From Rikenella microfusus DSM 15922 (lineage in GTDB: Bacteria; Bacteroidota; Bacteroidia; Bacteroidales; Rikenellaceae), in the NCBI RefSeq assembly GCF_000427365.1, contig NZ_KE386488.1, positions 992,001 through 1,056,000 of the forward strand: a stretch of 64,000 nucleotides of DNA, in the 5' to 3' direction. Each line of letters begins with the position of its first letter. Position 1 is the first letter of the stretch. Made by a program: the position numbers and the translations under genes. Positions 2,033 through 63,225 of the stretch are shown here, piece by piece. The notes below the pieces were generated by a model, which worked only from the letters and a program-made list of their open reading frames with translations, made no database searches and was not told the origin of the DNA.

Positions 2033-2061
2033 GGGGGCGGAATCTTTTCGGAAAATTTAGG

Positions 2062-2230
2062 CGACTATATACGAATTTACCCAAAATCAGGTAACGATCT
2101 TCCCAACCGGCCCTTCGGTGCCGCTCGGCACAGGGGACCGGGGCTTTTCTCTGCTTCAGGAGGTGGCGAGGGCCGAAATATACTGAAAATCAAGCACGCA
2201 TATAAATTAGGATTAAATCGTATATAGTTA
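2062..2230. repeat. Type B interspersed repeat (MITE-like), copy 1
   Basis: About 168 bp with imperfect inverted ends: the left end reads ACTATATACGAATTTACCC and the right end ATTAAATCGTATATAGTT. The middle holds a GC-rich block (ACCGGCCC to GACCGGGGC) and a conserved stretch GGGCCGAAATATA. Similar units occur at 26798-26962, 54010-54164, 54342-54513 and 58193-58368, with an inverted copy at 54187-54345 and a left half at 39319-39400. It encodes no protein. Confidence 0.8.
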
Positions 2231-2237
2231 TCAAAGT

Positions 2238-3146
2238 TTATTTGGCATTGAAATAGACTTCGGCCGGCATGCCGATTTTCAGCGGGCCGGGGTTGGCTAC
2301 GTAGATTTTCAGCGCGTAAACCAGGTTCGCGCGTTCGTCTTTGGTCTGGATCACTTTGGGCGTGAATTCCGCTTTGTCCGCGATCCAGCCGATGCGTCCC
2401 GTAAAACGGGCAGCCCCGGCGTAGGTGCTGTCCACCGTTACCCGTACCTCCTGACCGATCCGTATCGAGGCGAGTTGCGGCTCTTCGACGTAGGCCCTAA
2501 GGATCATCGTGTCCAGGTTCGCCACTTTGTAGAGCGGTTTGCCGATCGCCGCCAGTTCATGCTGTTCGGCGTATTTCGCCAGCACCGTCCCCTCCACCGG
2601 GTTCACCACATAGGCGTTGTCGATCCGGTCCTGCACTTGCAGGATCTGTTGCCGGAGGGGTTCCATCCGGGCCAGCAGGGTGCGTGTCTGGATGTCGAGG
2701 TTCGATTCCTGGGCGTCGATCTGTTTTTGCAGGATCTCGGCGTCGTACGAGAGGTTGTCGACCTGCTGGGCTGTCGAAGCGTCGGCGTCGGCCAGCGCCT
2801 TGAAGCGTGCCAATTCGTGTTTCGTTTTCGCCAGCTGTTCGCGCGTTACGTCCAGTTGTTTTTCTTTTTCCGGAAGCTGCGCCCGGAGCACGGCGATCTC
2901 GCCCTGCAATTGGTTGCGTTGCAGGACCAACAGCATCGTGTCCACCCAACCGACGATTTCGCCCCGCCGCAGCCGGTAACCTTCGTCTACGTTGAATTCC
3001 AGCAGTTTGCCGTTGCAGTCCGCCGACACGATCACTTCCACCGCTTCGAAGTTGCCGTAGGCGTCCGGTTGCGGGCCTCGCGTGCAGGAGCATGTTCCCC
3101 ATACCGCGAACAGGGCCGCCGCCCCGATGGGAAAATATCTTTTCAT
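2238..3146 (-). CDS. HlyD-type membrane fusion / efflux adaptor protein
   Basis: The 302-residue protein has a signal sequence with a cysteine after it (GTCSC, about residue 21), so it is probably a lipoprotein. It then shows a biotinyl-lipoyl half (about residues 30-70), a long coiled-coil hairpin (about 75-165), the second lipoyl half (VVNPVEGTVLAKY) and a beta-barrel. This is the layout of YbhG/HlyD adaptors that link an inner-membrane exporter to an outer-membrane channel. Such genes normally sit next to ABC ATPase and permease genes; here none is adjacent. The nearest candidate permease is at 34031-35161. The substrate cannot be read from the sequence. Confidence 0.85.
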   Translation of the reverse strand: MKRYFPIGAAALFAVWGTCSCTRGPQPDAYGNFEAVEVIVSADCNGKLLEFNVDEGYRLRRGEIVGWVDTMLLVLQRNQLQGEIAVLRAQLPEKEKQLDVTREQLAKTKHELARFKALADADASTAQQVDNLSYDAEILQKQIDAQESNLDIQTRTLLARMEPLRQQILQVQDRIDNAYVVNPVEGTVLAKYAEQHELAAIGKPLYKVANLDTMILRAYVEEPQLASIRIGQEVRVTVDSTYAGAARFTGRIGWIADKAEFTPKVIQTKDERANLVYALKIYVANPGPLKIGMPAEVYFNAK

Positions 3147-3204: not shown

Positions 3205-3345
3205 TATGCCTGGTATTTATTTGTACGGTTAAATTTATATGTTGTCGCCCGGAGCCAGCGAGGGCAAAACCGCAGGTTGCAGCCCTTCGCCGGGGGTGGC
3301 TCCGGGCTGACCGCTACGCGGATAATTAACCGTATGGTTAAACAA
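3205..3345. repeat. Type D interspersed repeat, copy 1, in the hlyD-punA gap
   Basis: The 347-bp gap between the adaptor gene and punA contains a GC-rich hairpin-forming unit: GCCCGGAGCCAGCG pairs with GGGGGTGGCTCCGGGC, flanked by ACGGTTAAAT on the left and TTAACCGTATGGTTAAA on the right. The same core occurs at 31453-31516, 39473-39550, 39838-39945 and 63118-63225. I see no gene in the rest of the gap. Confidence 0.7.
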
Positions 3346-7497: not shown

Positions 7498-7907
7498 TTT
7501 AACTGTTCGTTTATCCGTACATTGAGAGTAGAGTCCACTGTTCTTTCTTTGAAAAGAAAGAACCAAAGAAACTTTCGAGCAGGTTTGCAATGCCTCAGTT
7601 TGTCGAAAACCTTTTCTTGCAGACTTCTTTGTTCTGTAACAGATAGGGGACATCGGGCATAACGATATTAAAGTCCCCTATCCGTTACAGAACAAACTTT
7701 CAAAGGCAAAGGTCATCCGCCAGGCTCAAGAGATGCGCAAGCATCTCAAAAAGTTTTTCTGGTTCTCTTTGTTCACAACCGACGCTGCCAGCGAATCCAG
7801 AGACCGTTTACGGGCTATGGTAAGCGGCGAGGAGGAAAACGAGCGTAGCGAAGTTAAAGAGAACAGTCGCCTCAAACCTGAACAGTACAGATAAACGAAC
7901 GGTTAAA
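7498..7907. repeat. Type A structured repeat, copy 1 (with a 79-bp insert)
   Basis: A 410-bp non-coding element between sppA and ssb. The ends are imperfect inverted repeats (TTTAACTGTTCGTTTAT and ATAAACGAACGGTTAAA). Inside, in order: a hairpin GTTCTTTCTTT/AAGAAAGAAC; a 22-bp central stem (7630-7651 with 7673-7694, one mismatch); a hairpin GAGATGC/GCATCTC; and a hairpin GTTCTCTTTG/AGAGAAC. The loop of the last hairpin is split by a 79-bp insert (7779-7857). Copies 2 and 3 are at 28816-29165 and 43757-44090. Confidence 0.88.
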
Positions 7908-14558: not shown

Positions 14559-15195
14559 ATCGATTCTGCCAAAATGGATTTTCATCTGGGGAGCGATCCT
14601 AACGGGCCCCATCTCCGATGTGTCGGCACAAGTCATCCCTGCGATCAGGGCGGCGAGATTCGTTTCGAAACGGCATCGTGTCATTCGGCGGATACCCCGG
14701 GGGTTCCGTGTCGAACAAAAGCTCATCCACCTCTGGAAATACGGTTATTCCTGGACGTTCGATTCCTTAAACGATTCGTGGAAACGTTTCAGTAAAACCG
14801 GACAAGTCGGTGCGTTGTTCCGATCGGACGACCGACAATGCGAAGTGATATACAGCGTCGCCTTGGGATTCGACAACCATCGATCGTGGCTCCGAAACGA
14901 TCTGCTGAATATCTCGCAAGGGCAGGACACCGCTCGTTTCGAAGATCACGTAACCGTAATGACCGGTCAGGCAGTTCGACCGTTCAACGCCGATTCGATG
15001 TTTCTGCTCGAACTGCCGATCGAACCGATGGAGCGGGACGGATCCCTCTATACCCGCTGCGTGAGGATGTATCTGACCCGGAAAGGGCACACCTTTCTGG
15101 ATTTCGTCTGGTTCTTCACCGACGAGGGTTACGCCCGACGACAGGAATATCTGCGGGCGATAGAGGGAAAGGTCTATTTCAAGAAAGAACGATAA
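14542..15195 (+). CDS. Secreted protein of unknown function, paralogue 1
   Basis: The 217-residue protein has a signal peptide ending near SDVSAQ. I do not recognise the family. The mature part is rich in basic and aromatic residues and contains DARFEDHVTVMTG-like and FLDFVWFFTDEGYARR segments. It begins inside the end of the cysteine-peptidase-like gene and is followed 38 bp later by a paralogue. Its second half is nearly identical at DNA level to that paralogue while the first half has diverged. A role as substrate, inhibitor or partner of the upstream protein is possible but untested. Confidence 0.75.
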   Translation: MKFGNKSILPKWIFIWGAILTGPISDVSAQVIPAIRAARFVSKRHRVIRRIPRGFRVEQKLIHLWKYGYSWTFDSLNDSWKRFSKTGQVGALFRSDDRQCEVIYSVALGFDNHRSWLRNDLLNISQGQDTARFEDHVTVMTGQAVRPFNADSMFLLELPIEPMERDGSLYTRCVRMYLTRKGHTFLDFVWFFTDEGYARRQEYLRAIEGKVYFKKER

Positions 15196-15233: not shown

Positions 15234-15893
15234 ATGCAAAAATTGGTTTTTCTGATGTGGGTAGCGATCGTAATAGGGATTGCCCCCCATGTGTCGGCCC
15301 GAACGGTTTCCGCAGTCAAAGCCGCCAGACAGGTTTCGAGACAGACTCATGTTGTCCGGCAGATACCTCGAGATTTTCATATCGCGCAAAAACAAATCTA
15401 TCTCTGGAAATGGGACAATAATGGGAAATCCGATTCATTAACAGGCTCGGTGAAACGGTGGGCCAGATCCTGTCAGGTCGGCCTCCTGCTTCAGTCGGAC
15501 GACTTGCAATGCGAGGTCATATACAGCGTTGCTTACGGGACGGGAAGCAATTACCGAGGTTGGATCAAATATGATCTGCTGGATATTTCGCAAGGACAGG
15601 ACACTGCTCGTTTCGAAGATCACGTAACCGTAATGACCGGTCAGGCAGTTCGACCGTTCAACGCCGATTCGATGTTTCTGCTCGAACTGCCGATCGAACC
15701 GATGGAGCGGGACGGATCCCTCTATACCCGTTGCGTGAGGATGTATCTGATCCGGACAGGGCACACCTTTCTGGATTTCGTCTGGTTCTTCACCGACGAG
15801 GGTTACGCCCGACGGCAGAAATATATGCGGGCGATAGAGGGAAAGGTCTATTTCAAGAAAAGGCAGGAAAGCCCGCACCGTCCGACGAAGTAA
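15234..15893 (+). CDS. Secreted protein of unknown function, paralogue 2
   Basis: The 219-residue protein starts at the ATG at 15234 with a clear signal peptide (MQKLVFLMWVAIVIGIAP, cleavage near HVSA). The frame is open much further upstream, but that part overlaps paralogue 1 out of frame. It matches paralogue 1 along its whole length, strongly in the C-terminal half. A 125-bp stretch (15606-15730) is identical to 14932-15056, pointing to recent duplication or gene conversion. Function unknown. Confidence 0.75.
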   Translation: MQKLVFLMWVAIVIGIAPHVSARTVSAVKAARQVSRQTHVVRQIPRDFHIAQKQIYLWKWDNNGKSDSLTGSVKRWARSCQVGLLLQSDDLQCEVIYSVAYGTGSNYRGWIKYDLLDISQGQDTARFEDHVTVMTGQAVRPFNADSMFLLELPIEPMERDGSLYTRCVRMYLIRTGHTFLDFVWFFTDEGYARRQKYMRAIEGKVYFKKRQESPHRPTK

Positions 15894-16255: not shown

Positions 16256-19200
16256 ATGGCAAAAGTATTGGGCCTGGACGCCGGCACCAACTCGCTGGGA
16301 TGGGCCATCGTCGAAGAAACCGAAACGGGATATATCCTGGAAGACAAAGGTGTACATATCTTCCAGGAGGGCGTCGCACGCGATAAGAACAACGAAAAAC
16401 CGGCCGTACAGGATCGTACCGACGCACGAGCCCTGCGGCGTCGCTATTTCCGGCGCCGTCTGAGAAAAATCGAACTGCTCCGGGTGCTCGTCCGCTACGG
16501 TCTGTGCCCTCCGCTGACCGAAGAGCAGCTGGAAGCATGGAGGGAGAAAAAACGCTATCCGCTCGACGCGGCTTTCCTCCGCTGGCAGCGTACCGACGAC
16601 AACGCCGAGAGGAATCCCTACCACGACCGCTACCGCGCCCTGACCGAGACGCTCGACCTCAGCGACGAGCGGCATCGTCATGCGCTCGGGCGCGCCCTCT
16701 ACCACCTCGCGCAACGGCGCGGATTCCTCAGCAACCGCAAGGAGGCCGGCAACGGAAAAGAAGAAGGAGCGGTACAGAGCGGCATCGAAAACCTGTCGGC
16801 CGAGATGGAGAAAGCAGGGTGCCGTTACCTCGGCGAATATTTCTACCAACTGTACCGGCGGAAAGAGAAGATCCGCAAGCGATATACTTCGCGCAACAAA
16901 CACTATCTGGCCGAGTTCAATGCCATCTGCGAACGGCAGCGCCTGCCCGAAGAGTGGCGGAAAGCCCTGCACCGTGCGATTTTTTTCCAGCGACCGCTCA
17001 AATCGCAGAAAGGATCGGTGGGCAAATGCACCTTCGAGCGTAAGAAAAGCCGCTGTCCGGTCTCGCATCCGCGATTCGAGGAGTTTCGGATGCGCTCGTT
17101 CATCAACAACATCCGGCTGACGGCGCCCGGGGACGACACGCCCCGGCCCCTGACGCGGCTGGAAACGGAAACGATCCTGCCGCTCTTCCTGCGCAAAAGC
17201 AAGCCGCACTTCGATTTCGAGGAGATCGCCCGCAGGATCGCCGGCAAAGGACAATACGGCTGTCAAGGCGACCGCAACGAGGCCCCCTACCGGTTCAACT
17301 TCGCCCGTACCGCCACCGTCAGCGGCTGCCCCGTAACGGCATCGCTCATCGCCCTCTTCGGCGACGACTGGCTCCCGGAAATATGCCGGCTCTACCGGCT
17401 CGGCGAGGGGAAGAGCGAAGAACAGGTGCTGAACGACATCTGGCACGCGCTTTTCTCGTTCGACGACGAAGAGCGGCTCCGGGCGTGGGCGGCCGATAAG
17501 CTCCGGCTCGCCGACGAACAGGCCAAGGCTTTCGCCGCCATCCGTCTGCCGCAGGACTACGCGGCCCTGAGTCTGAACGCGATCAACAAGATACTGCCTT
17601 ATCTCCGCCGCGGCTACCGTTACGACGAGGCGGTATTCCTGGCCAACCTGAAAGCCGTGCTTCCGCCGGCGACGTATGCCGACGAAACCCGCCGTCTTCG
17701 TATCGAGCGCGACATCGCCGAACTGACCCTCGAATCCCGACGCGAACCCTACGTCAAATACGACTCGAAAGAGCGTCGCATCGACGACTACCTGACCGAC
17801 CAGGGCGTCCCCCCGGCCCGTCTGAACCGGCTCTACCACCCCTCGATGATCGAGACCTACCGGGCGGCCCGACCCGACGCGCAGGGACTGCTGCTGCTCG
17901 GATCGCCGCGCACCGCTTCGATCCGCAACCCGATGGCGATGCGGGCTTTGTTCCGGCTCCGGACCCTGGTAAACCGGCTTCTGCGCGAAGGCAAGATCGA
18001 CCCCGACACGAAAATCCGGATCGAATTCGCCCGCGGCCTGAACGACGCCAACCAACGTAAAGCCATCGAGCAATACCAGCGCGAACGGGAAGCCGAAAAT
18101 CGGAAATATGCCGACGAAATCCGGGCGCAATACGCCGCAGAAACGGGACTGACCATCGAGCCTTCGGAGGACGACATTCTGAAATACCGTCTTTGGGAAG
18201 AACAGAAACACGTCTGCCCCTACACCGGAAAACAGATCCGAGTTTCGGACTTTATCGGATCGGCTCCGGGTTTCGACATCGAACATACACTGCCGCGCGC
18301 CCGCGGCGGCGACGATTCGCAGATGAACAAAACGCTTTGCGAAAGCCGTTTCAACCGGGAAAGCAAACGGACGAAATTGCCCGCCGAATTGTCGAACCGT
18401 GCCGAAATCCTGGAACGGATCGAAAGTTTCGGATGGCGGGAAAAGGTCGAATCGTTGCAGAAACAGATCGAGGCCCAGTTCCGAAAGGGGAGAAACGCCC
18501 CCACGAAAGAGGAAAGGGACAGCGCCATCCAACGGCGCCACTACCTGCGCATGCAACGCGATTACTGGCGCGGAAAATACGAACGGTTCGCCATGACCGA
18601 AATCCCGGAAGGTTTCAGCAACCGGCAGGGGGTCGATATCGGGATCATCGGGAAGTATGCACGGCTCTACCTGAAAACGGTTTTCAGGCGGATCTATATC
18701 GTCAAAGGTTCCACGACCGACGCTTTCCGTAAAATGTGGGGATTGCAGGAAGAATACGCCCGCAAAGAGCGCATAAATCATGTACACCACTGCATCGACG
18801 CCATCACGATCGCCTGCATCGGCCCTAAGGAATACGACCGCTGGGCCCGGTACGCCGCCGATGAAGAGCGGTACCGCTACGGGGCGGGAGCTAGGCCGCG
18901 TTTCGACAAGCCGTGGCCGACCTTTACCGAGGATGTCAAAGCCGTAGCCGACGAACTGCTCGTCTCGCACCATACGCCGGACAATATGGCCAAACAGACC
19001 CGGAAAAAACTTCGGGTACGGGGCAGGGTGAAGCTCGACGCCGCCGGACGGCCGATCTGCCAACAGGGCGATACGGCGCGGGGACGACTGCATCAGGACA
19101 CTTTTTACGGAGCGATACGGCACCAGGACAAGCTCCGCTACGTGATCCGCAAATCGATCGGCGACTTGCAGCCGGCCGATGTCGAAAAGATCGTGGACGA

Positions 19201-19954
19201 AACCGTCAAGGCACGCATCAAGGAGGCGATCGGCGAAGTCGGATTCAAGACGGCGATGAATCCCGACGAACACACGATCTGGATGAACCGCGAAAAGGGA
19301 GTCCCGATCCGCAGGGTACGCATCTTCGCCAATATCACCCAGCCGCTGCCGTGGGACAAAATGCAGCGCGACCTCTCCGTTCACGAATACAAACGGCGTT
19401 ACCACGTGGCCAACGACGGCAATTACTGCATGGCGATCTACGAAGGGACCGACTCGAAAGGCAGGACAAAACGCTCGTTCGAGATCGTGAACCTGCTCGA
19501 CGCTGCCGGATATTTCAAAGCCAGCGCCGACCGCACGGCCCGTCCCGACCTGGTACCGCGCACGAATGCGAACGGCCATCCGCTCAAGTATCTGTTAAAG
19601 ACGGGTACGATGGTGCTTTTCTACGAAAATTCGCCCGCCGAATTGTACGACTGCCCGCCCAAAGAACTTGCCAAGCGGCTATATAAGGTCACCAAAATGG
19701 CAAAGAACGGCCAAACTGCATTCATGTTCCACCAGGAAGCCCGCAACGACGACAAACTGAAAACCGACTATGCGGAGAAATTCGGGACGACCGCCCCAAA
19801 AGCATTGACCAACGGCTACTCGTCGGTCGATTACCAGCAGCCCCACCCGAAACTCCTGTTAAGCCCTTCCAGTTTCGATATGTACGTCGAAGGTTACGAC
19901 TTCGAACTGACCGTTACCGGGCAAATCATCTTCAAACACGAGACGCCATGCTGA
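16256..19954 (+). CDS. cas9: Type II-C CRISPR effector nuclease Cas9
   Basis: The 1232-residue RNA-guided nuclease carries all active-site motifs: RuvC-I D8 in VLGLDAGTNSLGW, the Arg-rich bridge helix RRRYFRRRLRKIELLR (about residues 61-76), RuvC-II E590 in IRIEFARG, HNH H677 in DIEHTLPRARGGDDS, and RuvC-III H845/D848 in HHCIDA. The C-terminal third should hold the PAM-interacting region. It is followed by cas1 (7-bp overlap) and cas2 with no csn2 or cas4, which defines subtype II-C. The nuclease looks intact. A long open frame on the opposite strand is an artefact of codon bias. Confidence 0.98.
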   Translation: MAKVLGLDAGTNSLGWAIVEETETGYILEDKGVHIFQEGVARDKNNEKPAVQDRTDARALRRRYFRRRLRKIELLRVLVRYGLCPPLTEEQLEAWREKKRYPLDAAFLRWQRTDDNAERNPYHDRYRALTETLDLSDERHRHALGRALYHLAQRRGFLSNRKEAGNGKEEGAVQSGIENLSAEMEKAGCRYLGEYFYQLYRRKEKIRKRYTSRNKHYLAEFNAICERQRLPEEWRKALHRAIFFQRPLKSQKGSVGKCTFERKKSRCPVSHPRFEEFRMRSFINNIRLTAPGDDTPRPLTRLETETILPLFLRKSKPHFDFEEIARRIAGKGQYGCQGDRNEAPYRFNFARTATVSGCPVTASLIALFGDDWLPEICRLYRLGEGKSEEQVLNDIWHALFSFDDEERLRAWAADKLRLADEQAKAFAAIRLPQDYAALSLNAINKILPYLRRGYRYDEAVFLANLKAVLPPATYADETRRLRIERDIAELTLESRREPYVKYDSKERRIDDYLTDQGVPPARLNRLYHPSMIETYRAARPDAQGLLLLGSPRTASIRNPMAMRALFRLRTLVNRLLREGKIDPDTKIRIEFARGLNDANQRKAIEQYQREREAENRKYADEIRAQYAAETGLTIEPSEDDILKYRLWEEQKHVCPYTGKQIRVSDFIGSAPGFDIEHTLPRARGGDDSQMNKTLCESRFNRESKRTKLPAELSNRAEILERIESFGWREKVESLQKQIEAQFRKGRNAPTKEERDSAIQRRHYLRMQRDYWRGKYERFAMTEIPEGFSNRQGVDIGIIGKYARLYLKTVFRRIYIVKGSTTDAFRKMWGLQEEYARKERINHVHHCIDAITIACIGPKEYDRWARYAADEERYRYGAGARPRFDKPWPTFTEDVKAVADELLVSHHTPDNMAKQTRKKLRVRGRVKLDAAGRPICQQGDTARGRLHQDTFYGAIRHQDKLRYVIRKSIGDLQPADVEKIVDETVKARIKEAIGEVGFKTAMNPDEHTIWMNREKGVPIRRVRIFANITQPLPWDKMQRDLSVHEYKRRYHVANDGNYCMAIYEGTDSKGRTKRSFEIVNLLDAAGYFKASADRTARPDLVPRTNANGHPLKYLLKTGTMVLFYENSPAELYDCPPKELAKRLYKVTKMAKNGQTAFMFHQEARNDDKLKTDYAEKFGTTAPKALTNGYSSVDYQQPHPKLLLSPSSFDMYVEGYDFELTVTGQIIFKHETPC

Positions 19955-20835
19955 AACGCGCCCTTTTCTTTTCGACTCCCCACTGCCTGAGCCTGCGGAA
20001 CGGACAGATGGTCATCCGTACCCGCGAGACCCCCGACGCGCAAAAAAGCGTACCGGTCGAAGACATCGGATTCGTGGTGCTGGAACACCAACAGACCTCC
20101 GTCACCCTGCCGCTGCTCAACGCCCTGTCGGATAACAACGCGGCGGTGATATTCTGCGGCGACAACCGGATGCCGAACGCCATGCTGCTGAACCTGGATT
20201 CCAACACAACCCAGGGCGAGAGTTACCGGGATCAGATCGAAGCGAGCGAGCCGCTCAAAAAAGGGATATGGAAACAGATCGTCGAAGCCAAAATCCGCAA
20301 CCAGGCGGCCCTGCTGAACAAATTGGGCCGCGACGGCAACAAACTGAAACCCCATTACATGAATGTCAGGAGCGCGGATGCTGACAATCGCGAAGGGATT
20401 GCCGCCCGTATCTACTGGACCGAATTATTCGGTCCCGGCTTTATCCGTTCCCGCGAAGGGCTGCCGCCCAATCCTCTGCTCAACTACGGCTACACGATCC
20501 TGCGGGCAGCCGTGGCGCGGGCGCTCATGGGATCGGGACTGCTGCCGGCATTCGGTATTTTTCATCGGAACCGATACAACTGCTTTCCGTTAGCCGACGA
20601 TTTGATGGAACCCTACCGCCCCTATGTAGACGAACGGGTGTATGACCTTTACGGACAAGGGCACCGGCATCTGACGCAGGAGGCGAAAAGCGAACTGTTA
20701 CGGGTGCTATTCACGGACACACGTTTCGACAAGGTAGTACGACCGCTCGATATAGGACTTACCATCACTTCGGCTTCGCTGGCCGGGTGTTTCGCCGGGA
20801 CACGCAAGAAAATTTCGTACCCTCTGCTGGAGTAA
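19948..20835 (+). CDS. cas1: CRISPR integrase Cas1 (subtype II)
   Basis: With Cas2 it forms the complex that inserts new spacers. The 295-residue protein has the beta-rich N-terminal domain and the helical catalytic domain, with the expected metal ligands in ARIYWTELFG (Glu), FGIFHRNRYN (His) and the acidic segment PLADDLMEPYRPYVDE. The ATG at 19948 lies within the last codons of cas9, and cas2 begins four bases after its stop, so the three genes form one operon. Confidence 0.97.
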   Translation: MLKRALFFSTPHCLSLRNGQMVIRTRETPDAQKSVPVEDIGFVVLEHQQTSVTLPLLNALSDNNAAVIFCGDNRMPNAMLLNLDSNTTQGESYRDQIEASEPLKKGIWKQIVEAKIRNQAALLNKLGRDGNKLKPHYMNVRSADADNREGIAARIYWTELFGPGFIRSREGLPPNPLLNYGYTILRAAVARALMGSGLLPAFGIFHRNRYNCFPLADDLMEPYRPYVDERVYDLYGQGHRHLTQEAKSELLRVLFTDTRFDKVVRPLDIGLTITSASLAGCFAGTRKKISYPLLE

Positions 20836-20839
20836 CCCC

Positions 20840-21178
20840 ATGCCGGAACTACGACTAAATGCCTATCGGATTATGTGGCTGTTCGTCTTTTTCGATCTGC
20901 CGACCAACACCAAAACGGAGCGGCGCCATGCGGCGCAATTCCGCAAGGCGTTGGAAAAAGACGGCTTTACGATGATGCAATACTCGGTATATGTCCGGCA
21001 TTGCGCATCGAAAGAGAACATGCAGGTACATATCAAACGGGTGCGGCGTTCGACGCCTCCTTCGGGTTATACGAGTATCCTTGCCGTAACGGACAAACAA
21101 TACGGCGACATCCTGAATTTCTGGGGCAAGACCGAGTGCGCCAAACCGGACATGCCACAGCAACTGGAACTTTTCTGA
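20840..21178 (+). CDS. cas2: CRISPR-associated protein Cas2
   Basis: The 112-residue protein has a ferredoxin-like fold with the conserved aspartate in MWLFVFFDLPTNTKTER and the motif QYSVYVRHC. It is the structural partner of Cas1 in spacer acquisition. The first dozen residues precede the usual start MWLFVFFDL; the ATG at 20872 is an alternative start. The CRISPR array begins 130 bp downstream. Confidence 0.96.
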   Translation: MPELRLNAYRIMWLFVFFDLPTNTKTERRHAAQFRKALEKDGFTMMQYSVYVRHCASKENMQVHIKRVRRSTPPSGYTSILAVTDKQYGDILNFWGKTECAKPDMPQQLELF

Positions 21179-21308
21179 GAAATTGGTTAAATTTGTTCCT
21201 TGAAATAGAAAAACGCATCAAATCGGCTTCGCCGGCGTTTCCCGCTTTGGTTTTCACAGCCGAAGAAAGGCTATAAAGCACTAATTAACAACCCTTAACG
21301 GTCCCGGC
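21179..21308 (+). promoter_or_regulatory. Probable CRISPR leader
   Basis: The 130 bp between cas2 and the first repeat contain TAAATTTG at 21188-21195, a full match to the Bacteroidota -7 element, and AT-rich sequence (AAGCACTAATTAACAACCC) next to the first repeat. The far end of the array carries decayed repeats, which marks it as the trailer; that supports reading this side as the leader. Confidence 0.6.
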
Positions 21309-22185
21309 GTTGTGGTTTGATGTAGATTTTTAATAAGATACAACTCAGGAAGTTCGGAAGGATAACTCACACGGTTGTGGTTTGATGTAGATTTTTAATA
21401 AGATACAACTTTCTGGCAATATTGTGTTTAACACCATTTGTTGTGGTTTGATGTAGATTTTTAATAAGATACAACCGCGCTTCTGTAAGTACTCTTCTAT
21501 CAAAGTTGTGGTTTGATGTAGATTTTTAATAAGATACAACCATCCTTAGCCACGGAAGTACCATAGTTCTGTTGTGGTTTGATGTAGATTTTTAATAAGA
21601 TACAACCTGTTTGCGACGGGCAGAGGGGGACTGATGTTGTGGTTTGATGTAGATTTTTAATAAGATACAACTTCCGGGTCGTTGCAAGTGGCACCGTCGT
21701 TGGTTGTGGTTTGATGTAGATTTTTAATAAGATACAACGAAAGAATCGCTGACGGCCCTGTATCACGGTTGTGGTTTGATGTAGATTTTTAATAAGATAC
21801 AACAATGCCGTCTGTGTATGAGTAACAGATTGTGTTGTGGTTTGATGTAGATTTTTAATAAGATACAACTCGGACATACTGCGTCCCGTCGGCCCTATAG
21901 TTGTGGTTTGATGTAGATTTTTAATAAGATACAACCAAAAATCCGAGAACCCTACGGAGGCAAACGTTGTGGTTTGATGTAGATTTTTAATAAGATACAA
22001 CCAATCTCGTGAGTTTACTTTCGAAGCGAAGGTTGTGGTTTGATGTAGATTTTTAATAAGATACAACGGTTTAATACGTACTATTGGTATTCCAGCGTTG
22101 TGGTTTGATGTAGATTTTCAATAAGATACAACCGTCGATTCGGCTTGTGCGATACTGGAAGGTTGTGGTTTGATGTAGAATTTTG
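21309..22185 (+). CRISPR. Type II-C CRISPR array, 13 full repeats plus one broken repeat, 13 spacers
   Basis: The 36-bp repeat begins GTTGTGGTTTGATGTAGA and ends TTTTTAATAAGATACAAC. Full repeats start at 21309, 21374, 21440, 21505, 21571, 21636, 21703, 21768, 21834, 21900, 21966, 22032 and 22097. Spacers are 29-31 bp and all differ. The first twelve repeats read as identical; the thirteenth has one T-to-C change, and the fourteenth (from 22162) keeps only its first 18 bases. Its decay places the trailer on the right. The tracrRNA anti-repeat matches the plus-strand repeat, so crRNAs read left to right. Confidence 0.99.
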
Positions 22186-22240
22186 GATTATGCCGGAAAC
22201 TTAGACGGCTCCGCAAAGCGTCCGACGGCAGGAAACTAAG

Positions 22241-28815: not shown

Positions 28816-29165
28816 TTAATCGTTAATAAACGGTTCGTTTATTCGCCCTGTTTTAGGTTTTTGGAGACAACTGTTCTTTTTCTTCAGAAAAAGAACCAAA
28901 AAGACTTTCGAGCAGTTGTGTTTCGCCTTAAGCTCCGTAGTCCTTTGGCATTGAAATTTTCTTTGTGTTGCCATTACCGGGGGCTAATCAGATCTAACTA
29001 TGTTAAATAGCCCCCGGTAATGGCAACATAAGACTTTCAAAGGAAAGGGTATCCGGCAAGCTCAGGAGATGCGCAAGCATCTCAAAAAGTTTTTCTGGTT
29101 CTCTTTGTTCACAAAGAGAACAGTACCCTCAAACCTAACAGCACGAAATAAACGAACGATTAATT
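28816..29165. repeat. Type A structured repeat, copy 2 (different central stem)
   Basis: It fills the 388-bp gap between corA and mqnA. Outer parts match copies 1 and 3: GGTTCGTTTATT at the left, ATAAACGAACGATTAATTA at the right, the GAGATGC/GCATCTC hairpin and the CAAAGAGAAC hairpin. The first hairpin has paired changes relative to the other copies (GTTCTTTTTCT with AGAAAAAGAAC). The central stem is unrelated in sequence to that of copies 1 and 3 but is a perfect 21-bp pairing (28966-28986 with 29008-29028). Confidence 0.88.
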
Positions 29166-39167: not shown

Positions 39168-39318
39168 AAGATTTTTTATAAAATAAAACAGAATCTTACC
39201 GATTCTCCGTATGTCTTCTGCTCTTTGTGCGGCGTCGGAACGGGGCGGCACCGTTGCGGGATTCGGTTTGCGGAGCGTACGTTTTTCCGCGGCTCCCGAT
39301 AAAAACCGAATAAAATAC

Positions 39319-39400
39319 GGTAACTATATACGACTTTACCCAAAATCAGGCAATGATCTTCCCAACCGGCCCTGTGCCCAAGCGGCTCTGCCGCTTAGGT
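39319..39400. repeat. Type B repeat, left half only
   Basis: GGTAACTATATACGACTTTACC followed by CAATGATCTTCCCAACCGGC matches the left half of type B units; the match stops where a D/E composite unit begins. Confidence 0.7.
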
Positions 39401-39837: not shown

Positions 39838-40230
39838 AAGCCCGGAACCAGCGAGGGCAAAACCGCAGGTTGCAGCCCTCCGCCGGGGGTGGCTCCGGCC
39901 TGACCGCTGACGCGGAAACTTAGTTTTAACCGTACGGTTACATATCCCTTTCCCCGTTCGTTTAGTGGGCAGAGGCTGCCAACTCGGGAATGTGCGATTT
40001 TCCGAAGCAGCAGCCTCTACTCGTACTTCGGCACAAAATAAAATGCCGGGAGTACTTATTTGAAAGATTAATTATAAAGGTCGAATACCGGAGAGCGACC
40101 GCAGTTCAAGGAAGTTACAGCCCGGTTGGAGCGCCCGGCGGCACTGCCGGACACTCCGAAAATATTATGCCCGCGGCAGGGTAAAATCGTCATATTTGCC
40201 GAATTGCGAAAAATCATACCGCCGAAAATA
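39838..40230. repeat. Second type D core and partial type E end, upstream of the small gene's terminator
   Basis: 39838-39945 is a D core (CCCGGAACCAGCG to GGGGGTGGCTCCGGCC, closing with AACCGTACGGTTA). 39986-40010 is a fragment of type E (GGGAATGTGCGATTTTCCG). No gene is seen in the remainder. Confidence 0.65.
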
Positions 40231-42332: not shown

Positions 42333-42359
42333 TCCCGTTCGTTCCGACGGACGAACCGA

Positions 42360-42410
42360 ACCGTGGAAAGATTTGGTCGATTGCAACCACGAGAAAAAAT
42401 GCTAAAGCAC
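42360..42410 (+). ncRNA. SAM-II riboswitch aptamer upstream of metK
   Basis: CGTGG (42362-42366) pairs with CCACG (42387-42391). Between them lie GATTTGG and ATTGCAA, and after the stem comes an A-rich linker and TGCTAAAG (42400-42407). These are the conserved elements of SAM-II: P1, the GAUUU and UUGCAA loop segments, and the 3' GCUAAA strand that closes the H-type pseudoknot. SAM-II senses S-adenosylmethionine, the product of the metK gene that follows. The aptamer ends about 120 bases before the metK ATG, farther than usual for direct Shine-Dalgarno masking. Confidence 0.88.
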
Positions 42411-42581
42411 ACATTTCCGAACCCGGCCCGAGGGCTTCCGTGCGCTTTTCTTTCGTTTCCGTGGCCCGCGCACTTCCGATTCCTGTCCCGGTCGTATGCC
42501 GAAAAATCATTAACAGCAAAAACCTACACGCATGGGATACCTGTTTACATCGGAATCGGTGTCGGAAGGACACCCCGATAA
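42399..42581 (+). other. Short open frame starting inside the SAM-II aptamer and overlapping metK
   Basis: The ATG at 42399 is part of the aptamer's 3' strand. The frame runs 60 codons and stops 50 bp inside metK in another frame. The encoded peptide (MLKHTFPNPARGLPC and on) matches nothing I know. It may be chance, but its placement could link aptamer state to metK translation. Confidence 0.3.
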
Positions 42582-43756: not shown

Positions 43757-44090
43757 TATTAATCGTTCGTTTATTTGTACGTTGAGGGTGGAGTCCACTG
43801 TTCTTTCTTTGAAAAGAAAGAACCAAAGAAACTTTCGAGCAGGTTTGTATCGCCTCAGTTTATCGGAAACCTTTTTCTTGCAGACTTCTTTGTTCTGCAA
43901 CGGATAGGGGGCTATTAATGTCGTTACCCGATGCCCCCTGTCCGTTACAGAACAAGCTCATTAAAGAATAGGTTATCCGCCAGGCTCAGGAGATGCGAAG
44001 CATCTCAAAAAGTTTTTCTGGTTCTCTTTGTTCACAAAGAGAACAGTCGCCTCAAACCTGAACAGTACAGAATAAACGAACGGTTAAAAA
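43757..44090. repeat. Type A structured repeat, copy 3
   Basis: It fills the gap between metK and tsaC. Ends TTATTAATCGTTCGTTTATT and AATAAACGAACGGTTAA are inverted. The central stem pairs 43891-43912 with 43933-43954 (one wobble, one mismatch) and is related to copy 1, not copy 2. The last hairpin is intact here (GTTCTCTTTG-TTCA-CAAAGAGAAC). Confidence 0.88.
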
Positions 44091-54009: not shown

Positions 54010-54513
54010 GGTAAGTATATACGACTTGACCCCAAAATCGGGAACGATCTCTCTAAACGGCCCTGCGCCCAAGCGGCGTAGCCGCTTCGGGGGGTGGGCG
54101 CGGGCCGAAATATATAGAGAATCACATATGCATGTAAATTAGGGTAAAGTCGAATATACTTACCTATCGAAGTATATAATCGGGGGTAACTATATACAAG
54201 TTTACCTTATTTAAGTATATCTGGTTTTCAGTGCATTTCGGCTCGCGTCCGCCCCCTTGAACGGAAGCCCCGATCCCCTGTGTCGGGCGGTGCCGCAAAA
54301 CCGACTGAGGAGACCGCTGCACGGCTTTGGGCAAAATCGTAGGTAATTATATACGACTTATCCAAAATCAGGTAATGATCTCCCTAAACAATCCTACGGT
54401 GCCGCTCGGCACAGGGGATCGGGGCTTTTCTCTGCTTAAGGAGGTGGCGCGGGCCGAAATATACAGAGAATCACATATGCATGTAAATTAGGGTAAAGTC
54501 GGATATAGTTACC
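54010..54513. repeat. Cluster of three type B repeats (54010-54164, 54187-54345 inverted, 54342-54513)
   Basis: Three units lie almost end to end, the middle one reversed. Each has TATATAC-type ends with TTACCC or its complement, and the GGGCCGAAATATA block. The outer two share the closing stretch AATCACATATGCATGTAAAT with near-identical surroundings, suggesting recent duplication. Confidence 0.8.
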
Positions 54514-58149: not shown

Positions 58150-58712
58150 CGATCGGTTTTTTAATACGATTCCCGATTATCTGTTTTTCAATGGGTAAGT
58201 ATATCCGGCATTACCCAAAATCGGGCAATGATCTCCCTAAACGGCTCTGCGGTACCGCAGGGCACTCCGGCCGGGAGTCGCTTTTGCCCAAGAGGGTGGG
58301 CGCGGGCCGAAATATACTGAAAATCAACTGTGCATACAATATAGGGTAAAGTCGTATACATTTACCTTATACCTGATTATATACTTTGGTGTACTAAACC
58401 GATTCGGCGGTAATTTCCCGCTATCGGCTCCGCGGTGCCGCCGGGCACTCCGACCGGGAGTTCTTTTTGTCGATATAGAGTCCGGCGCGAGGCGGTGCAA
58501 ACCCGGGCTAAAGACCAGGAGGGTCCGGCGCGAGCCGACAAACGGCTGGTACACGGAAATATATAATCGCCTGCGATCTTTCCCGGGGCCGGCGTTACCG
58601 TCCGATTTCCCGTATGCAAAAGAAAGCATAAAATCTGAAAACAAACCGAATTTTCCGTCCGGTTTTCCCGGTTCGTTGCCGCGTCCGGTTGGCGATTCCG
58701 CCTGAAAAACAT
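58150..58712. repeat. Type B (58193-58368) and type C (58396-58552) repeats upstream of the B12 locus
   Basis: The B unit opens GGTAAGTATATCCGGCATTA and closes GGGTAAAGTCGTATACATTTA. The C unit runs from TTCGGCGGTAATTTCCCG to GGGTCCGGCGCGAGCC. The C unit returns in inverted form at 62557-62690. Confidence 0.8.
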
Positions 58713-58726: not shown

Positions 58727-58990
58727 GAAGGTTCCGTAACGGCCCGCCCGGACAGGCTCCGGCGCAGGCCCCGGATAAAGAGCCGGTTTAAAAACCGGCT
58801 CCGAAAGGGAACGCCGTGCGAATCGGCGACAGTTCCCGCTGCTGTGAGTTCCGGCTTTTCCCCGACGGGAAAGCCTGTCGGTCGCGACTTTTCCGCCACT
58901 GGCCCGCCCGCGCGGACCGGGAAGGCGTCGGGACCGGAACGAGTCAGAAGACCTGCCCTCGCCCTGTCACTCCGATCGGCGACCTACGGC
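58727..58990 (+). ncRNA. Cobalamin (adenosylcobalamin-type) riboswitch
   Basis: The core reads AAAGGGAACGCCGTGCGAAT, then CGGCGACAGTTCCCGC and TGCTGTGA (58804-58847), the conserved J-region set. A GCCACTGG element follows near 58898, and the B12 box appears as GAGTCAGAAGACCTGCC (58941-58957). It precedes the btuG-like and btuB genes and should turn them down when cobalamin is plentiful. The 3' limit is approximate. Confidence 0.93.
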
Positions 58991-62859: not shown

Positions 62860-63225
62860 AAAACCGTAGGTTTAAATGTATGTCTGCCGCCGACGGGCGT
62901 TTGTTTTTTCTTCGCCCGCTCATGCCGCGGAGGCACTTTCTTTCTTGCGCGACCAAGAAAGAAAGCAAAGAAGTCGCCGGGAATGCGATTCCCCGCTCCC
63001 GACTCCCGTCGGATCGGGAAATCGCACATTCCCGGGCCAACAGTCTCCGCCCCTGTTTCGATACCAATATAAAAAGCCGGAAGTATTTTTAAATCTACGG
63101 TTTATTACAATGTTCTCCTTTAGTCAGGCCGGAGCCAGCGGAGGCCCAACGAGCTTTGCAAGTTGCAGGCCTTCGCCGGGGGTGGCTCCGGCCTGACCGC
63201 TAACGCGGAAATTTATTCTTAACCG
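62860..63225 (+). repeat. Composite type D/E repeat, full copy
   Basis: In order: GTAGGTTTAAATGTATG, TTCTTCGCCCGCTCATGCCGC (as in the copy at 39437-39830), hairpin TTTCTTTCTTGCGCGACCAAG, type E hairpin (62977-63036) and type D hairpin (63126-63200), ending CCTGACCGCTAACGCGG and AACCGTAC. Confidence 0.75.

Follow-up and report, generated by a model that had tools for sequence, protein, structure and literature searches.

Matched changes in the two arms of a stem serve as the standard proof that an RNA is functional. Three non-coding elements in a 64,000-nt stretch of DNA from Rikenella microfusus DSM 15922 (the window, part of a near-complete genome of 2.88 Mb in 2 contigs) carry such changes, and they raise the question whether pairing was preserved by selection on a fold or by copying of one DNA arm from the other. 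The first-pass annotation of the window had offered three readings, a structured RNA, a fold-recognised mobile element or a cassette with a swapped core, and had taken selection on pairing to be the simplest explanation.

Architecture and distribution of the type A repeats

All three elements were located where they had been described and could be aligned end to end in one common architecture. Its outer inverted arms are built on CGTTCGTTTAT and enclose, from left to right, a left hairpin followed by a conserved linker, a central stem of 20-27 bp whose loop measures about 20 nt, the GATGC-GCAA-GCATC hairpin and a right hairpin, after which comes the closing arm. The features of the three copies are listed below, together with the basis of each assignment where applicable.

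Copy 2
28816..28848, + strand: left outer arm (TIR, core GTTCGTTTATTCG); sequence read, and TIR pattern count versus reversed control
28873..28896, + strand: left terminal hairpin GTTCTTTTTC-TTCA-GAAAAAGAAC; sequence and folding
28898..28904, + strand: purine third strand AAAAAGA, which mirrors the opposite-strand hairpin arm; mirror count
28966..28986, + strand: 5' arm of the central stem, TGTTGCCATTACCGGGGGCTA; 21 bp, 0 mismatches
28987..29007, + strand: central loop, 21 nt; such loops occur in both orientations among the copies
29008..29028, + strand: 3' arm of the central stem, TAGCCCCCGGTAATGGCAACA; stem listing
29066..29083, + strand: small hairpin GAGATGC-GCAA-GCATCTC; sequence and folding
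29092..29096, + strand: pyrimidine third strand TTTCT, which mirrors the TCTTT of the right hairpin arm; mirror count
29098..29121, + strand: right terminal hairpin GTTCTCTTTG-TTCA-CAAAGAGAAC; sequence and folding
29148..29165, + strand: right outer arm ATAAACGAACGATTAATT; sequence read

Copy 1
7498..7907, + strand: whole element, between an S49 peptidase gene and ssb (divergent genes)
7628..7651, + strand: 5' arm of the central stem; stem listing
7673..7696, + strand: 3' arm of the central stem, one A·C; stem listing
about 7777-7855, + strand: GC-rich module of 79 nt, inserted in the right hairpin; the same kind is mirrored in other copies

Copy 3
43757..44090, + strand: whole element, between metK and a Sua5/YrdC gene
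43890..43912, + strand: 5' arm of the central stem; stem listing
43933..43955, + strand: 3' arm of the central stem, one C·A and one T·G; stem listing

The series of four hairpins, previously described as fixed, stood as a common architecture, but the fourth hairpin of copy 1 is split by the 79-nt GC-rich insertion (about 7777-7855). As claimed, the central stem of copy 2 pairs over 21 bp without a mismatch (28966-28986 with 29008-29028); the stem of copy 1 comprises 24 bp with its one A·C, and that of copy 3 comprises 23 bp, of which one is C·A and another T·G. The matched arm changes reported for the first hairpin were likewise recovered (GTTCTTTCTT/AAGAAAGAAC in copies 1 and 3 versus GTTCTTTTTC/GAAAAAGAAC in copy 2). 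GC-rich modules occupy mirrored positions, within either terminal hairpin or third strand, at L008, L014, L020, L032, L038 and L039 as well as at window positions 7777-7855.

The terminal hairpins are accompanied by a third tract that mirrors the hairpin arm and lies 5' of the right-end hairpin and 3' of the left-end hairpin. The motifs are TTTCT-GGTTC-TCTTT and TTTTC-GGTTC-CTTTT, with TCTTT-GGTTC-TTTCT on the other strand. Perfect mirrors were found in 365 of 367 informative occurrences and direct repeats in none, these occurrences stemming from overlapping loci that are not independent and representing about four distinct informative types. Judged by sequence, the terminal hairpins meet the requirement of a pyrimidine-motif triplex (triplex types are classified in PMC4666352); for such a structure to form, the closing GGTTC/GAACC pairs would have to open, or the linker to stretch.

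With copy 2 as DNA query, about 42 type A copies were detected in the R. microfusus genome. The repeat was present in all eight Rikenella genomes searched, some of which contained more than 100 candidates, amounting to hundreds across all eight. The terminal arm (TIR) pattern occurred 55+53 times in the R. microfusus genome versus 1+1 times for the reversed control. At most of the twenty further arm-bearing places that were read, the paired arms enclosed a different interior (another palindromic core, a GC-rich block or a chimera), which indicates that the family is modular. The exact left hairpin, a strict pattern that misses divergent versions, was found only in the R. microfusus genome among 395 genomes of the phylum, and a literature search for the hairpin sequence returned no paper. 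Divergent yet recognisable versions occur in other Rikenellaceae; the non-Rikenella copies L090, L092, L093, L095, L097 and L104 were read and left out of the counts. Among these, L093 (G044) and L097 (G030) apparently occupy the same site, with the inner block inverted and a different core, and their outer inverted repeat takes in gene ends and differs in matched fashion, too.

A second dispersed repeat family (GGTAACTATATACGACTTTACCC...) lies at window positions 2060-2245, 39306-39399, 54010-54166 and 58194-58369, and is fused to half of a type A element at the R. microfusus locus L330. A GC-rich repeat, GGCCCGGAGCCAGCGAGG...GGGGGTGGCTCCGGGC, is located at 3247-3315, 39840-39908 and 63133-63201; a block resembling it is found at the R. 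microfusus locus L336 and, enclosed by type A-like ends, at the site in a related species that corresponds to copy 3 (L109). The window also contains genes for Cas9 (RuvC_III, HNH_4, Cas9_a) and cas1 followed by a CRISPR array (16256-22197) of at least 13 repeats (GTTGTGGTTTGATGTAGATTTTTAATAAGATACAAC) with a period of 65-67 nt, and an ORF between them (20875-21276) that gave no Pfam match. Further features are a 300-nt direct repeat with 93% identity, 674 nt apart (14874-15173 and 15548-15847), a SAM-II riboswitch near metK (42357-42415) and a cobalamin riboswitch (58749-58974).

Paired stems and changing interiors at stable sites

The best ungapped stem score of 157 real interiors had a median of 14, compared to at most 12 and a median of 6.5 for shuffled 179-nt interiors, which excludes chance stems. 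Copy 2 as a whole folded 10 SD below its shuffles. The central stems of the R. microfusus genome fall into about eight sequence classes, nearly all of which pair over 20-27 bp. In an alignment of 19 distinct stems from this genome, 98.6% of the cells were paired and 16 of 24 stem pairs had changed on both sides; 63 cells had both sides changed, 6 had one side changed and 6 were unpaired. The covariation score of these stems was 0.428; shuffles gave 0.158 ± 0.015, and slid partners did not exceed 0.074. They differ by paired substitutions together with paired indels, and at column pair 14-49 an additional base pair is present or absent jointly on both arms. The covariation score and the double changes strongly support the earlier claim that pairing is kept and sequence is not, and almost every copy pairs in its centre. 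The stem of copy 2 had also been called unrelated to the others. This does not wholly hold within the R. microfusus genome, where the 19 stems share a TTGT..GGGG..CCCC..ACAA-like frame, but it does hold between species, as other Rikenella species have central stem sequences altogether different from these.

The imperfections within the stems are strand-neutral. Across 92 distinct stems, each read in the canonical orientation, G·U occurred 40 times and A·C 43 times (p = 0.83), and the two occurred 14 versus 14 times when read in the sense of codirectional host-gene transcription; stem counts across genomes include some elements read on both strands, which was corrected for in this test. Identical loop sequences were found in both orientations between near-identical arms (L016/L017, L005/L014, L021/L013), and blocks larger than the loops are inverted as well.

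For the closest species pair, the flanks of 11 element sites in G003 were searched in G006. All 11 sites hold an element of similar size in both genomes, with a flank identity of 93-99% that mostly runs into the outer arms. Three interiors were alike and in the same orientation, two had a new core between identical terminal hairpins (L043/L347, L289/L352), four were inverted as a whole (L059/L348, L240/L349, L291/L353, L297/L357) and two were unrelated. With flanks 93-99% identical and interiors that differ, the interior changes far more rapidly than the sequence around it. From locus to locus the outer arms vary, but they are kept at each locus in these alignments and thus behave as the site's own part; the boundary of the exchange in L043/L347 and L289/L352 falls immediately inward of the terminal hairpins. 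Comparing the R. microfusus genome to G001, G003, G005, G006 and G007 also revealed the same sites with other cores and with both element orientations. The core was replaced between homologous flanks in R. microfusus L013 and G001 L046, in R. microfusus L022 and both G005 L045 and G001 L190, and in R. microfusus L028 and G006 L262. At the copy 3 site, one related species has similar ends around a GC-rich interior (L109) and another has a plain terminator; in L110 the element is absent and the sequence between the genes could not be aligned.

Metagenome assemblies make up most of the comparison genomes; judged by their fragmentation into 120-280 contigs, G003, G006 and G007 are among them, and their contigs often end inside elements, so that individual inversions may stem from assembly errors. 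None of these three enters the comparison between the R. microfusus genome (2 contigs) and G001 (40 contigs, 98% complete). Taken together, the family exhibits stable sites, conserved ends, paired but replaced cores, inversion of loops and interiors, and strand-neutral imperfections. As far as sequence comparison goes, the element is a stable container with rapidly changing content.

Proposed arm copying and alternative explanations

We propose, with about even confidence, that the type A elements are DNA hairpin repeats, and that template switching or ectopic conversion copies their arms and spacers anew, inverts them and exchanges them. Each of these non-coding modular repeats would sit at an intergenic site that persists for long and whose own outer inverted arms bound the repeat, and the interior of the repeat would be a set of nested inverted repeats, the terminal hairpins with their mirror third strand and then the central palindrome. 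The nested arms may fold when single-stranded at the replication fork, where a template switch of the DNA polymerase from arm to arm would overwrite the partner arm and so yield perfect pairing and double changes. Such a switch between arms could also flip loops and whole interiors. With a second copy of the repeat as template, the core would be replaced, which would amount to ectopic conversion via the common terminal hairpins.

Homogenised arms and an inverted spacer are the stated signature of template switching between inverted repeats (PMC8604942), and such switching can generate perfect stems, and maintain them, with compensatory changes that span several bases (PMC8794818). The type A repeats show homogenised arms as well as inverted spacers, and template switching would hence account for the matched changes, the loop inversion and, given larger arms, the interior inversion. 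Whole-core replacement needs a second template, and its donor was not traced. Some arm differences are consistent across many copies and several genomes (GGGGCGCGGGAGCGG opposite GGGGTGCGGTGAACGG in G006, a bulge in G007), indicating that arm repair is not constant. We infer that copying occurs by template switching or ectopic conversion and not by a recombinase; a benefit of the repeat to the cell need not exist.

Among the three readings offered at first pass, the cassette with a swapped core fits best, as the same sites hold replaced or inverted interiors. We tentatively put forward a wider version of it: dozens of intergenic 'docking' sites would be kept over long periods by their own outer arms, and palindromic interiors would be continually flipped and exchanged genome-wide to give species-specific core sets, either via DNA hairpins and triplexes at the fork or by a dedicated enzyme.

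We consider it unlikely that the repeats are MITEs moved in trans by an arm-recognising transposase that inserts repeatedly into the same sites. Terminal inverted repeats, high copy number, lack of coding capacity, the 55+53 half-sites and the several interiors between the same ends would all suit such an element, as would the related species with similar ends around a GC-rich interior, or with a plain terminator, at the copy 3 site. However, 11 of 11 sites were occupied in the sister species and neither an empty site nor a target duplication was seen there, the outer arms vary among loci and are kept per locus like a part of the site, and a REP-type Y1 transposase is absent: Y1_Tnp (PF01797) had no match in the R. 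microfusus genome and matched in five control genomes. MITE membership is thus unproven, and these findings lower the probability of the proposed fold-recognised mobile element without removing it. The absence of a PF01797 match speaks against a REP/REPIN with RAYT. L345, the one long-spaced end pair that was read, encloses ordinary genes and no transposase and was rejected as a parent IS.

A structured RNA, transcribed with its neighbours and with a stem selected for RNA processing, stability or termination, would explain the very strong covariation, the stable folding and the pairing of almost all copies, but appears rather improbable. On a selected RNA strand, G·U should be tolerated better than A·C, and this excess is absent, the two being equal in both tests. 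The ratio of 63 double to 6 one-sided changes would be odd for stepwise RNA evolution, where more G·U intermediates are due, and is expected if arm is copied from arm. DNA-level arm copying also predicts covariation of paired columns, which is therefore not diagnostic of RNA. Elements occur in both orientations, with neither preferred, and in mixed gene contexts (48 codirectional, 17 convergent and 15 divergent pairs, approximate numbers from ORF-based calls rather than annotation, with some duplicate rows). Searching Rfam yielded no family for the elements at the gathering score, the permissive matches being generic hairpin models far below threshold. Finally, inversions of loops and interiors are common and tolerated, which this reading does not predict. 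A terminator role was dismissed, since copy 2 has no terminator-like site and no gene context is favoured. Of the view that selection on pairing is the simplest reading, the kept pairing stands, but the step to selection is not forced because template switching makes and repairs stems without it (PMC8794818, PMC8604942); selection on an RNA fold is not supported as the simplest reading of the matched changes.

Even more doubtful is site-specific recombination, in which a tyrosine or serine recombinase would invert and exchange cassettes between the arms in an inverton-like manner. Four of the seven interiors still alike between the sister species, about half, are inverted, both orientations exist at one site among relatives, and the R. 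microfusus genome encodes 24 candidates (16 integrase-type and 8 resolvase-type matches). The arms differ between loci, though, and the inverted unit is variously a 20-nt loop, an inner block or the whole interior, three nested levels that a single recombinase site would not produce; ordinary site-specific inversion would generally call for more than a loop of about 20 bp. Very improbable is that misassembly of repeats in the fragmented metagenome-assembled genomes, with their contigs often ending within elements, explains part of the site-by-site swapping and inversion, as whole-genome core differences cannot arise from misjoins and, at one site, the elements of the R. microfusus genome and G001 likewise differ in core and lie in opposite orientations.

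The Rikenella family passes the covariation test very strongly, yet the strand test and the inversions favour DNA copying. It therefore provides a natural test case for RNA selection versus template-switch arm repair. With its many parallel sites within one genus, it would also allow cassette inversion and exchange to be measured directly in cultured strains.

Comparison with known repeat systems

The BOX elements of streptococci (boxA-boxB-boxC; PMC3049150) resemble the type A repeats in being modular, with conserved end modules, a variable middle that differs at fixed sites between strains, strong predicted folding and many intergenic copies. BOX, however, varies by the number of tandem boxB units, whereas the palindromic core in Rikenella is replaced or inverted, and target duplications and an IS proposed as a relative are described for BOX but were not found in Rikenella. 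MITEs such as Correia elements and Nezha (as described in PMC3049150) are also non-coding, with terminal inverted repeats, high copy number and strong folding. They differ from the Rikenella repeats, for which no target duplication, empty site or matching transposase was found and whose outer arms are site-specific, with an interior that is renewed at a persisting site. REP/BIME and REPINs (PMC3116915, PMC2817692) share the extragenic palindromes and mosaic arrangements; in contrast, the Rikenella repeat is about 330 nt long with a fixed architecture, its terminal hairpins carry triplex-type third strands, and the genome has no Y1 REP transposase.

The intrastrand triplex repeats BoxC/TM-ECO (PMC4666352) likewise combine a hairpin with a potential third strand in many intergenic copies, and they have been linked with local rearrangement (PMC4666352). 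These are of the G/C-rich purine motif and occur in Proteobacteria, whereas Rikenella has an A/T-rich TTTCT-GGTTC-TCTTT mirror at both ends of a larger element; neither Bacteroidetes nor Rikenella is named in the main text of PMC4666352. Template-switch inverted repeats (PMC8604942, PMC8794818) have in common with the type A repeats that arms are made identical and the spacer is inverted. The published cases are single events in genes or rRNA, and the cited yeast work concerns short spacers; by comparison, the Rikenella repeats form a dispersed family in which whole cores are replaced at many sites and the flipped interiors measure about 250-400 nt.
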